From: an archaeon
GTDB lineage: Archaea > Thermoplasmatota > Thermoplasmata > Methanomassiliicoccales > Methanomethylophilaceae
Assembly (NCBI GenBank): GCA_024399275.1
Contig: JAKSHS010000005.1
Coordinates: 1 to 51,733, forward strand
Direction: 5' to 3'
Length of the DNA stretch: 51,733 bases
Below, piece by piece: positions 45,253 to 50,469 of the stretch. Each line of letters starts with the position of its first letter. Within the stretch, counting starts at the first letter, position 1. A program made the translations under genes and the position numbers. The notes under the pieces are model-generated. The model searched no databases and was not told the origin of the DNA. It worked only from the letters and a program-made list of their open reading frames with translations.

Positions 45253-46026
45253 GTGAGGAGAATTGCCATCTACGGCAAAGGGGGAATAGGCAAGTCGACG
45301 ATTTCCTCTAATGTTACTGCTGCGCTCTCCGATATGGGATTTAAAGTGTTGCAGATTGGGTGTGATCCAAAATCTGATTCTACAAGCTTGTTAACTGGGA
45401 ATAGCAAACATCAGACGGTTCTTGGAGCTGTTAAGCGATGTAGAAATGTCGGCATGGATGATATTGTATCTGTAGGGTATGGAGGCTCGTATTGTGTTGA
45501 GTGCGGTGGCCCTAGCCCAGGTACAGGCTGTGCAGGGCGAGGGGTAATCACAGCATTCGAGACGTTAGAGAAGGTTGGAGCGATAGAGAAGTGTAACCCA
45601 GATGTTATAATCTACGATATTCTTGGAGACGTTGTTTGCGGAGGTTTCGCTATGCCTATGCGGAACGGATATGCAAATGATATATTCATCGTGACGTCTG
45701 GCGAACTCATGGCTCTATACGCTGCAAATAACATCGCGACGGCCATTAAAAACTTTTCAGGAATAGGCTATGCGCGTTTGGATGGATTGATCCAAAATTC
45801 GCGTAATGTTACGAACGAGGATGAATTAGTGTCAAATGCAGCAACAGATATTGGGACAAGCGTTATTGCACGTATTAAAAGATCGCCGATCGTTCAGGAC
45901 TGTGAGGCTGTACATAAGACGGTTATAGAGGGAGCACCCGAATCTGAGCAGGCTTCTGCGTACCGCATGTTGGCAAAGCTAATACTAGAGAGGTCAAGAG
46001 ATACGGTCGGAGGTATGAAACTTTGA
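45253..46026 (+). CDS. cfbC: CfbC, NifH-like reductase of F430 biosynthesis
   Basis: Iron protein that delivers electrons to CfbD for the reductive cyclisation of Ni-sirohydrochlorin a,c-diamide in F430 synthesis. At 257 aa it has the P-loop GKGGIGKS at 8-15, CDPKSDST, and cysteines 93 and 129 (GCAGRG and VVCGGF), which bridge a [4Fe-4S] cluster between two subunits. No nitrogenase genes are near, and the neighbours are the other cfb genes, so this is CfbC rather than NifH. The start is GTG at 45253, matching the family's [10 protein letters not shown] opening; AGGAG lies inside the first codons, not before them. Confidence 0.95.
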
Positions 46027-46056: not shown

Positions 46057-46845
46057 ATGACAAAGAAAGCTATATTGATTATTGGGCACGGTTCTAGGTA
46101 TGAATACAATGAAGCAACCATGGATGAGCAAAAAAGTCGCCTTGAAAAGATGGGTTACGAGAATGTCTACATAGGTTTTAATGAAACTTCTCATCCTTTC
46201 ATCGGGGAAGTTATGATTCAAATGGCTAGAGATGGGGTCGAAGAAGTCGTGGCAGTACCGTTTTTTATTACAGCTGGAAGACACACAATTGAACAGATTC
46301 CTGAGAAGCTTGGGTTAAAAGAGAATGAGAATAACACATATGTCGAATTTGAGGGCCATAAGATAATGATGCATTACGGCGATCCATTTGGGGACGACCC
46401 TGTTCTTGCAGAGATTATAAGAGATAGAGTGAATGAGGCTAGAACCCATAGAAATATAGGGATACTCGTGATTGGACATGGGTCCAAATTGCCGTATAAT
46501 AAAAAGACTATAGAGTTTACTGCGCAGCGTCTTAGAAATATGGGATATGACAATGTCCGTTTTGCGTTTAACGAATTTGATGAACCACACATTGAAGATG
46601 CGATGACAGAGCTTATGTTGACAGATATTGACGAAATTTTGGTGGCTCCATTGTTTATAGCGTTGGGTGACCACTTGAAAAATGACGTACCAGCAAAAAT
46701 TCGTGTAGGGGCTAATACTAGCAGCAACAAAAGGCTTGACGGGGGGTATGTTAAAGTGAAATATTTACAACCAATTGGAAGAGATATTCGTTTAACAGAA
46801 GCTTTTGTTGCAAAGATCGAGAAGTATTATGGAGCGCTGGAATGA
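46057..46845 (+). CDS. cfbA: CfbA, sirohydrochlorin nickelochelatase, two-domain form
   Basis: Inserts Ni(II) into sirohydrochlorin, the first committed step to F430. Most archaeal CfbA/CbiXS proteins are ~130 aa and dimerise; this one is 262 aa and consists of two copies. Copy 1 (about 1-125) has His 11 in IIGHGS and His 76 in FFITAGRH. Copy 2 (about 135-262) has His 141 in VIGHGS and His 206 in LFIALGDH. Both pairs of metal-binding histidines are kept. GGAGTGATG precedes the ATG. It overlaps cfbE by four bases (ATGA). Cobaltochelatase activity for B12 is also possible. Confidence 0.93.
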   Translation: MTKKAILIIGHGSRYEYNEATMDEQKSRLEKMGYENVYIGFNETSHPFIGEVMIQMARDGVEEVVAVPFFITAGRHTIEQIPEKLGLKENENNTYVEFEGHKIMMHYGDPFGDDPVLAEIIRDRVNEARTHRNIGILVIGHGSKLPYNKKTIEFTAQRLRNMGYDNVRFAFNEFDEPHIEDAMTELMLTDIDEILVAPLFIALGDHLKNDVPAKIRVGANTSSNKRLDGGYVKVKYLQPIGRDIRLTEAFVAKIEKYYGALE

Positions 46846-48059
46846 AGATTCTCATTTTGGATATTACTCATGGAGGAGATATTCTTGCGGAGGAATTTAG
46901 GAAAAGGGGAGACGATGTATCGTGTGTTGACGTCTATGCTAATGTATCAGGTGATAAAAAACTGTACTTAAAATCAATCGGAGTGGAAGTGCTCAGTTCC
47001 ATTTCAAAATGTTTGTTCGATCTTGTTTTATCTCCGGCACATTGCCCTGATGAGTTTCTTAACGGTGTGAAGTACAGAGAAAGGAAAACATTCAGCAGTG
47101 CTGTGAAAATGCTTGCTAGCAGGGGCATATTTAGAATAGAGGTTACAGGTGTTAAAGGGAAGACTAGTACGTGTTACCTTCTGGCACACATTTTAGACCA
47201 TGCAGGTAAGAAAGTATTCCTGCATACGTCTAGGGGACAAGGGCCATACGTTAATGGCGTACATCACATAGAAAGAGTCATGAGTATTGCGCCTACGTCG
47301 TTACTTAGACTCCCGGAGGATGGTTACGACATCAATATTGCAGAAGTGTCTCTCGGAGGAAGTGGAAGAGCAGATATTTCCGTAGTTACAAACTTACTAG
47401 AAGACTATGGAATAGCAAGGAATACGAGAAAGGCATCTAGCGCGAAGGCTGAGATTTTCGGCGATGGAGTTAACATCGTAAGAAGTGACGAAGTTAAAAC
47501 GTGGTCTGCCGTTAGTAATCACAAATTACATCCTTTCGATGACAGTACTAGAGTTGTTGGTAATCCACATGTTGGAGAAAAAGTACAAATAATTTTTTCA
47601 TATGGTGGCAAAGCGCATGAGGCTACGCTAGATTCTTCGTATCTTTCTGTTCAATATATCCCTTCAGTTGACGTCGTGCTTAGTGTATGTAGCGAGCTAC
47701 ATGTTGAGATTGGTCATGTTATAGCTGGATTAGAATCGTTTAAAGGTGTTCCAGGCAGGGGAGAAATTTCAGTTGAGGGGAATTCGATTTACATAATGGA
47801 AAGGAATCCCGGCATTTCTCATATATCTGTCAAGAAAACTCTAGAGTCGCTGAAAGAAATGAATGGATTGAACAACGCATTTGTTATTGTCAATCCTGTA
47901 AGTAAGAAAGTTTGCGATAAGATGAGATGTGACTTAATTTCTGAAGTAACTAAAGAGTACGGGATCGAGGCTGTGTTTACGAATGGTGTTGACGACTATG
48001 TTAACGTTCCGCGTGGAAAGACAACAATTGTTAAATTTATCAAGGAGGGATTCCGATAA
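46842..48059 (+). CDS. cfbE: CfbE, coenzyme F430 synthetase (Mur ligase-like)
   Basis: ATP-dependent ring-closing step that forms the six-membered carbocycle of F430 from seco-F430. A 405-aa Mur ligase homologue with an N-terminal Rossmann-like domain (ILILDITHGGDILA), the ATP-binding VTGVKGKTST near 101-110, then a central ligase domain with the NIAEVSLGGSG segment, and a C-terminal domain with NPVSKKVCDKM. It lacks peptidoglycan neighbours and lies in the cfb operon. Start overlaps the cfbA stop (ATGA). Its TAA stop overlaps the proposed AUA start of cfbD. Confidence 0.92.
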   Translation: MKILILDITHGGDILAEEFRKRGDDVSCVDVYANVSGDKKLYLKSIGVEVLSSISKCLFDLVLSPAHCPDEFLNGVKYRERKTFSSAVKMLASRGIFRIEVTGVKGKTSTCYLLAHILDHAGKKVFLHTSRGQGPYVNGVHHIERVMSIAPTSLLRLPEDGYDINIAEVSLGGSGRADISVVTNLLEDYGIARNTRKASSAKAEIFGDGVNIVRSDEVKTWSAVSNHKLHPFDDSTRVVGNPHVGEKVQIIFSYGGKAHEATLDSSYLSVQYIPSVDVVLSVCSELHVEIGHVIAGLESFKGVPGRGEISVEGNSIYIMERNPGISHISVKKTLESLKEMNGLNNAFVIVNPVSKKVCDKMRCDLISEVTKEYGIEAVFTNGVDDYVNVPRGKTTIVKFIKEGFR

Positions 48060-49135
48060 GAATTATACACCCGCGCCCAAACCCGATTGTTGCTGCAATG
48101 TATACGTTAAGAGATCTCGATGTGGATGTCATTATTGTTCATGGGCCGGCAGGTTGCGGGTTCATGGCGTCTAGAATGCTTGAAGAGACAGGAGTTAGAG
48201 TGGTAACGACTGCTATGAAAAATGATGATCTTATTTTTGGTGGGTCTGAATCTCTAATATCAACACTAAGAATCGCTGAAGAAAAGTTTCGTCCTACGGT
48301 AATGGCAGTAGTTGGGACGTGCTCTAGTATGATAATTGGAGAGGATATGGAATCCGCAATTAGACAGTCTGGCGTTAGTGCCAAGGCATTTGCTGTAGAT
48401 TGTAACGGGTGTATGGATAACAACACTGAAGGTGCCATTAGAGCTATAGATTCGGCGTATAGAGCTGGTTTAATATCTATAGAGGAAAAATTGCGTCAGT
48501 CAATGTTGATGACTGCAGCCACTGAGATGGAAATGAGGAGTGGTATGGCGTCTCGTGATTATCTTTCACCAGTCAAAGGACCAACAAAGCTTTTGGTATG
48601 TAGGAAAATAGCTAGAAGTCTCAAAGATGGGAAGAAGATTGCTTGTGTAATGTTAGCGAAGAAGGAGCTGGCATATCGCTTTTCGGATATTTTCTTGGCG
48701 TTAAAGGATGCACAGTCAGCGCTTGGTGGAAAATTATTCTTTATTGGAAATTTAAGAACTGATGTTGGATTGCCGAGAATTAGAGGATACGCCAAGACAA
48801 TAATCGATGAAATGTCAAAGAAAGGTGTTAGGTTGAATGATGTTGTTGGAGGACTTGACGAATACGCGATAATTGGGCAGACAATGAGAGAGAAAGTTGA
48901 TGCGTTCGAACCAGATCTTACGATAATTGTAGGTATTCCACATGGATACCCGGGATATTCAACTAACGACATTTTGATAACTGATCAACCTAGACAACTG
49001 GCAAACTATCTTTCGAAAGGATACGATTTTGCTGTTGGGGAGATATCGTCTCATTCCATGGTAATGAATACGAAAAACATAATTCCGTTAGAGACAGGTG
49101 ACACTTTAAGGGAAGTTATCAAGGAATTTGTATGA
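48056..49135 (+). CDS. cfbD: CfbD, NifD-like catalytic subunit; probable AUA start
   Basis: Catalytic component of Ni-sirohydrochlorin a,c-diamide reductive cyclase, working with CfbC. The body shows HGPAGCGFMASRM with the cluster-ligand Cys, VGTCSSMIIGEDM, the DCNGCMDNN segment and LPRIRGYAKTI. The first ATG in frame is at 48098, but the 14 codons before it read RIIHPRPNPIVAA, which is the family's conserved N-terminus. The frame is open back to 48035 and contains no ATG, GTG or TTG. An ideally placed GGAGG (48044-48048) lies seven bases before ATA 48056-48058, which overlaps the cfbE stop. I therefore extend to AUA. With AUA the protein is 359 aa. Confidence 0.85.
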   Translation: MRIIHPRPNPIVAAMYTLRDLDVDVIIVHGPAGCGFMASRMLEETGVRVVTTAMKNDDLIFGGSESLISTLRIAEEKFRPTVMAVVGTCSSMIIGEDMESAIRQSGVSAKAFAVDCNGCMDNNTEGAIRAIDSAYRAGLISIEEKLRQSMLMTAATEMEMRSGMASRDYLSPVKGPTKLLVCRKIARSLKDGKKIACVMLAKKELAYRFSDIFLALKDAQSALGGKLFFIGNLRTDVGLPRIRGYAKTIIDEMSKKGVRLNDVVGGLDEYAIIGQTMREKVDAFEPDLTIIVGIPHGYPGYSTNDILITDQPRQLANYLSKGYDFAVGEISSHSMVMNTKNIIPLETGDTLREVIKEFV

Positions 49136-50469
49136 AGGGAGTGGTTATTGCTGGAACTGGAAGTGGTGCTGGGAAGACTTCTATTGCCACTGGCCTTATG
49201 TCTATCCTCTCGAAGGAGATGAATGTTCAGCCGTATAAGGTCGGACCTGACTTTATTGATACAATGTATCATTCTGCTGCTACTGGAAATTTTTCGCGGA
49301 ATCTTGATACATTTATGAATTCTGAAAATACTATTAGAAATTTGGTGGGATACACATCGAAAGGTGCGGATATATGTATTGTTGAGGGCGTTAGGGGACT
49401 GTATGAAGGACTCTCAGCAACGTCAGACCAATGTTCCACAGCGCAAATTGCAAAAATCTTGGGACTTCCTGTGGTATTAGTTATGGATGTTAAATCATTG
49501 ACTAGAAGTGCAGCAGCGATACTGAATGGTTTCAGATCCTTTGATAAGGGCGTCAAGATTGGAGGAGTAATATTAAATAATGTATCCGGACCACAGCATG
49601 AAGAGAAACTTAGAACGGTACTAAAGGAACATTGTGAAGGTGTGAATATAATAGGAGTGGTGGGGCATCACAACGAGTGTGTACTTAAACAGAGACATTT
49701 GGGATTGAATGTTATTAGAGGTTCGAGGGAGGAAATTGAGCCTCTGGAGATTCTTGCAGGGGACGTAGATATTGATCAGTTCTTGAGCGTGGCTGAGGAC
49801 GCAGATGTTGACCTTCCAACATCTGATGTGTATTGTAAACATAATTTTGGGACTACTGTGGCCATTCCGATGGATGCCGCATATTGCTTTTACTATAGAG
49901 AAAATATAGAATGTCTTCGGTCTGCGGGAATGAATATAAAGTTTTTCAGCCCGTTGAGAGGGGATATGCTGCCCAGTGCTGATGCTTACTATATAGGTGG
50001 AGGATATCCGGAGCTATACCTTGAGGAAATTTCTTCTAACAAGGACTTTATGGATGGTTTAAAAAATTCTTGTGACGATGGGAAGGCAATTATTGGCGAG
50101 TGTGGAGGCCTTATGACGATGTGTCAGGATACGATCGTGGGACATGATGTTTATAGAATGTCTGGGATTTTCAATGCTGATGCAAAGATTTGTGGAAGGC
50201 ACGGTCCGAAATATGTGATTGCACGGTGCACTGAGTTCAATAAGATGTTTAATTATCCAGTAATTAAAGGGCATGAGTTTCATTATTCAAGCATTCAACC
50301 AAAGCAAAAATATGAGTTTTTTTATTCTCTGAGTAGAGGGGCGGGCATTATTGATTGTATGGATGGAATTACAATCAAAAATTCGGTTGGATCGTACATG
50401 TATCAACATTGTCTCTCAGTACATGATTGGGCTTCTGGCGTACAAAGAATGGTGGGGAGGGGCAATTAG
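49132..50469 (+). CDS. cfbB: CfbB, Ni-sirohydrochlorin a,c-diamide synthase (CbiA-like)
   Basis: Glutamine-dependent amidase that converts the a and c acetate side chains of Ni-sirohydrochlorin. At 445 aa it has the N-terminal dethiobiotin-synthetase-like domain (AGTGSGAGKTS P-loop, KVGPDFIDTMYH, VEGVRGLYEG) and the C-terminal class I glutamine amidotransferase domain with YIGGGYPELY, the nucleophile Cys in GECGGLM, and the catalytic His region in KGHEFHYSS. The start overlaps the cfbD stop (ATGA). It ends in TAG, with TAA one codon later. Last gene of the cfb operon. It could also serve cobalamin synthesis. Confidence 0.94.
   Translation: MKGVVIAGTGSGAGKTSIATGLMSILSKEMNVQPYKVGPDFIDTMYHSAATGNFSRNLDTFMNSENTIRNLVGYTSKGADICIVEGVRGLYEGLSATSDQCSTAQIAKILGLPVVLVMDVKSLTRSAAAILNGFRSFDKGVKIGGVILNNVSGPQHEEKLRTVLKEHCEGVNIIGVVGHHNECVLKQRHLGLNVIRGSREEIEPLEILAGDVDIDQFLSVAEDADVDLPTSDVYCKHNFGTTVAIPMDAAYCFYYRENIECLRSAGMNIKFFSPLRGDMLPSADAYYIGGGYPELYLEEISSNKDFMDGLKNSCDDGKAIIGECGGLMTMCQDTIVGHDVYRMSGIFNADAKICGRHGPKYVIARCTEFNKMFNYPVIKGHEFHYSSIQPKQKYEFFYSLSRGAGIIDCMDGITIKNSVGSYMYQHCLSVHDWASGVQRMVGRGN

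Follow-up and report, generated by a model that had tools for sequence, protein, structure and literature searches.

A probable AUA start codon of archaeal cfbD at a conserved cfbE/cfbD stop-start overlap

Start codons outside the usual set are established in bacteria: infC (IF3) starts at AUU or AUC and sigR of Streptomyces starts at GTC (PMC5472188). Here, we describe an archaeal gene, cfbD, which appears to start at AUA. Like cfbD with its proposed AUA start, infC is essential and begins with an AUN rather than an NUG codon; it differs in that the infC start serves IF3 autoregulation. The sigR gene, likewise a natural gene with a non-canonical start, is bacterial and IF3 repressed and is described without the stop-start overlap that cfbD has (PMC5472188). 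In a survey of bacteria and archaea that covered 36 sets of related genomes, two of 61,358 AUG starts were found to have switched to CUG and one to AUU (PMC5622118). Another related arrangement is the prokaryotic ATGA overlap with translational coupling, which has the same four-base geometry with the Shine-Dalgarno (SD) motif inside the upstream gene; cfbE/cfbD has ATAA in its place, and the coupling here is putative. Our search of the open-licence literature turned up no archaeal core gene reported to start at AUA or ACG. NCBI translation table 11 permits ATA as a start.

The window, that is, the whole stretch of DNA analyzed, comprises 51,733 nucleotides of contig JAKSHS010000005.1 from a gut methanogen of the Methanomethylophilaceae, whose genome is called G000 below. 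Table 1 lists its features of interest. The product of cfbD covers positions 1 to 351 of the 352 in the TIGR03282 profile with its residues 5 to 354 and passes the curated cut-off. The adjoining cfbE also scores above its cut-off, and the cfbB- and cfbC-like genes have their best matches below the respective cut-offs. Two nearby junctions of the operon, before cfbE (46842-46845) and between cfbD and cfbB (49132-49135), carry ordinary ATGA overlaps. The mcrA gene is intact.

Table 1. Positions of the features discussed, in the window unless a locus is named
Feature	Position	Strand	Remarks
cfbC-like reductase subunit, GTG start	45253..46026	+	Best NCBIfam match NF033200, under cut-off
CbiX/CfbA-like chelatase	46057..46845	+	By eye from translation only
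cfbE, coenzyme F430 synthase, TAA stop	46842..48059	+	NF033197, 289 bits (cut-off 250)
AAGGAGG, SD motif within cfbE Lys-Glu-Gly codons	48042..48048	+	Strongest form observed; complementary to 16S 3' end of G006
ATA, inferred cfbD start codon	48056..48058	+	ATG in sister; overlap codon in 98/98 loci; SD spacing 7
cfbE/cfbD stop-start overlap ATAA	48056..48059	+	ATGA in sister
cfbD, 359 codons from ATA plus stop	48056..49135	+	TIGR03282, 378 bits (cut-off 268.4)
Met15 codon, first canonical codon in frame	48098..48100	+	Judged internal: invariant residues upstream; model helix 10-20 spans Met15
cfbB-like a,c-diamide synthase	49132..50469	+	ATGA overlap with cfbD; best match NF033195 under cut-off, cobB subfamily TIGR00379 over cut-off
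rpl13, ACG at start column	L159:7684-8106 (G000:C11)	+	In-frame ATG-TAA just before; SD GAGGTGAT
rpl13, ACG at start column	L193 (G003:C24)	minus	In-frame ATG-TAG just before; SD GAGGTGAT
pgk, ACG at start column	L352 (G006), L345 (G013), L349 (G027)		No canonical start in frame upstream

The first-pass annotation had read an apparent AUA start of cfbD from the sequence of this junction, and its observations were borne out. The cfbD frame, open from 48035, reads ATT TAT CAA GGA GGG ATT CCG ATA AGA ATT ATA CAC CCG, and its first ATG, GTG or TTG is the ATG at 48098. The GGAGG that had been placed seven bases ahead of the ATA lies at 48044-48048, and the ATA does overlap the cfbE stop (TAA, 48057-48059). 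Upstream of the ATA, the cfbD frame is open for 21 bases, all inside cfbE. When begun at 48056, CfbD would contain RIIHPRPNPIVAAMYTLR. The frame lacks any canonical start upstream of the conserved N-terminus.

That conserved residues precede the first ATG was confirmed by alignment: in 19 CfbD sequences, H5, P6, R7, P8, P10, A13 and A14 are invariant, and all seven lie upstream of Met15. The codons ahead of Met15 differ from those of the nearest relative by six synonymous and two non-synonymous changes (dN/dS 0.07), which points to purifying selection on this segment; over the whole gene, dN/dS is 0.048, indicating strong purifying selection. The AlphaFold model of CfbD (mean pLDDT 89.6) places a first helix at residues 10 to 20, with residues 1 to 7 at low confidence.

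The nearest relative of the window is G003, with 91% protein identity; its junction, L003, is on the same contig as L066 (MAG Horse_feces2, JAKSHT010000003.1). The cfbE/cfbD junction reads ATTCCAATGAGAATT in this sister and ATTCCGATAAGAATT in the window (in a second excerpt, CCAATGAGAATT and CCGATAAGAATT, respectively). It had been proposed that an ATGA overlap became ATAA by one G-to-A change, and the sister carries ATGA at exactly the same site, so the predicted state exists in the closest relative. The change is silent for cfbE (TGA to TAA). Both G000 and G003 are 0.70 to 0.75 Mb in size, with an estimated completeness of about 79%, and their congeners have 1.3 to 1.8 Mb; the small sizes could be due to genome reduction or to missing contigs.

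We then compared 98 distinct cfbE/cfbD loci from Methanomassiliicoccales, including that of the window. The four-base overlap of stop and start is present in all 98, and in 97 of them the Lys-Glu-Gly codons of cfbE form an SD-like motif with a spacing of exactly seven bases to the overlap codon, the position that AAGGAGG also takes in the window. Overlap and spacing are more than chance. The overlap codon itself is ATG in 41 loci, GTG in 40, CTG in 10, TTG in 6 and ATA in 1. The CTG loci are spread over five genera (g11, g19, g20, g23 and g26); in two of them (L015 and L056), no ATG, GTG or TTG at all precedes the conserved N-terminus within the open frame. For several others, the nearest alternative is a GTG located three codons further on; this GTG stands 16 bases away from the SD motif and is not retained in neighbors with GTG at the overlap.

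The cfbD start codon shares its first base with the last codon of cfbE, of which it is the third base. With a Gln codon (CAA or CAG) at the end of cfbE, cfbD has ATG or GTG; with a four-fold degenerate codon there, each of the four NTG codons is found. Since the range of start codons tracks the degeneracy of the last cfbE codon, the constraint on the shared base seems to come from cfbE at least as much as from cfbD.

The strongest form of the SD motif, AAGGAGG, was found in 9/41 loci with ATG, 25/40 with GTG, 4/6 with TTG, 10/10 with CTG and 1/1 with ATA. Taken together, CTG and ATA loci had it in 11/11 cases versus 38/87 for the others (Fisher p = 0.0005, a value inflated by kinship). The trend persists within groups: counted by eye, AAGGAGG was present in 1/1 (ATA) versus 0/3 (ATG) in the genus of the window, in 3/3 (CTG) versus 0/2 in g11, and in 7/7 versus 4/7 in family f6. 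The anti-SD sequence was taken from the outgroup G006, whose 16S 3' end is GGATCACCTCCT and is complementary to AAGGAGG, because a search for the 16S gene in G000 and G003 found none. That a weak start codon is offset by a stronger SD motif is a known compensation (Belinky et al. 2017, PMC5622118). The climb in SD strength at cfbD from ATG to GTG to CTG/ATA agrees with it, while the analysis of those authors was limited to AUG, GUG and UUG and the cfbD series includes CTG and ATA (PMC5622118).

The comparative data thus favor the AUA at 48056 as the start of cfbD, because of the fixed overlap and SD spacing, the ATGA of the sister, the invariant residues and the CTG at the same position in 10 other genomes. 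The first-pass annotation had left open AUA (or AUU) initiation versus a sequence error. Of the two codons, AUA is the better supported and the AUU at 48050 is disfavored, since it lies two bases past the end of GGAGG (48048) against the fixed spacing of seven. Under the error alternative, base 48058 would have been called wrongly in the consensus or would represent a minor allele, in a population that really has ATGA and a normal start. The ATA was seen in one assembly only, no second genome with an ATA start, at cfbD or another gene, was found among those compared, the sister has ATG, and the cfbE stop is TGA in 97/98 loci and TAA in the window alone. Furthermore, among 403 coding-like ortholog pairs, cfbD was the clearest start lost in the genome of the window yet kept in the sister. 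On the other hand, the genome gives no sign of poor assembly, as almost every split gene turned out to be an antisense shadow frame, and the unusual ACG start of rpl13 in the same genome recurs in an independent MAG. We consider such an error unlikely, although it keeps appreciable weight.

Other readings of the junction fare less well. Initiation could occur at another near-cognate codon, AUU 48050, AUU 48062 or AUA 48065, all of them AUN codons close to the SD motif; conservation of the spacing-seven position in 97/98 loci makes this improbable. That CfbD begins 14 residues later, at ATG 48098, would agree with this being the first canonical codon in the frame. Such a start would drop all seven invariant residues and would cut about half of the first helix of the model, it would leave the selection on the preceding codons unaccounted for, no relative begins CfbD at the position of Met15, and this ATG lacks an SD motif placed by the conserved geometry; we regard it as very improbable. 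Much the same holds for the proposal that the start has just been lost and the protein is no longer made, or is made at a negligible level. The lost start and the small genome (0.75 Mb) would fit, and had the loss been very recent, it would have left no mark, but the 359-codon frame is intact and under the purifying selection described above, and the cfbE, cfbB-like and cfbC-like genes and mcrA are intact as well. A ribosomal frameshift out of cfbE, giving a CfbE-CfbD fusion, might use the 21 open bases ahead of the ATA; in every relative, cfbD retains a start of its own at the SD spacing, and the fusion is the least credible of these readings.

The AUA at 48056-48058 is the codon from which cfbD is probably translated. 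In the proposed mechanism, an ancestral ATGA overlap would have become ATAA through a single G-to-A change that cost cfbE nothing. Initiation would have been kept since the strong SD motif in cfbE codons, at its standard spacing, fixes the site, and ribosomes finishing cfbE atop the start probably assist. The ordinary initiator tRNA (CAU) would read AUA as a near-cognate codon. Initiation at AUA, help from coupling to cfbE and Met as the first residue are all inferred. We know of no IF3-type autoregulatory loop for cfbD. An altered initiator tRNA and loss of aIF1 were considered as causes and rejected, as an initiator-type CAU tRNA is present and aIF1 was found in 10/10 genomes searched.

Non-canonical starts were also screened for by comparing stretches of G000 and G003 with part of the outgroup G006. 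In early ortholog screens, antisense shadow frames and also conserved leaders crowded the results, and stricter filters gave short lists. The three-way screen passed over cfbD itself, since the local alignment happened to extend upstream, so its counts are lower bounds. It also flagged several genes of G006, the control genome, which were rejected as only alternative starts.

The start column of rpl13 has ACG in both G000 and G003 and ATG in relatives. Begun at ACG, the N-terminus would read MVTVING and aligns without gaps with MVTIIDG of congeners. For pgk, most genomes have ATG at the start column, and G013, G027 and the single-contig genome G006 have ACG; in these ACG loci, in-frame stops lie 3 to 8 codons upstream, and another canonical codon follows only 20 to 50 codons downstream. 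The pgk genes of G018 and G015, also with ACG, were left out of the count because of a GTG three codons upstream. Since ACG in rpl13 and pgk was found in separate assemblies, error is an unlikely explanation there.

Weaker candidates for non-canonical starts are three other genes. In a DNA adenine methylase-like gene (L159, minus strand; L193:485-1510, plus strand), both species lack ATG, GTG and TTG before the conserved N-terminus and share an ACG two codons before the conserved part; a relative close enough to fix the start was sought and none was found. In a Pcc1-like gene (L160:15571-15948, plus strand), the genome of the window offers no canonical start codon close to the conserved N-terminus; an ACG is common to both species, followed one codon later by TTG in the sister. 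An RIO-kinase-like gene of G006 (C1 near 112,750, in L286) has an apparent CTG start right after an in-frame TGA, and the genome of the window has ATG. A conserved small gene of G003 (C1 near 56,600, frame + 56583) was also seen to have no canonical start at its aligned N-terminus, where the genome of the window has GTG.

Near-cognate initiation thus looks recurrent in Methanomassiliicoccales, as judged from these alignments, and AUA in cfbD would fit the pattern. We lean towards the view that start choice is relaxed in this order, with CUG and AUA in cfbD and ACG in rpl13 and pgk being genuine, recurrently evolved starts of core genes that strong SD motifs hold in position, together with the stop-start overlap in the case of cfbD.

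If this is true, an archaeal enzyme gene required for F430 starts at AUA in the window, and the relatives of the window provide a natural series of ATG, GTG, TTG, CTG and ATA at a single, fixed site of initiation. Along this series, the strong SD form is commoner as the start codon weakens. These native sequences would make start-codon fidelity testable in archaea, from which, to our knowledge, IF3 is absent. In these methanogens, CfbD, ribosomal protein L13 and PGK would come out truncated from gene finders restricted to ATG, GTG and TTG, and start-codon choice seems looser than gene finders assume.
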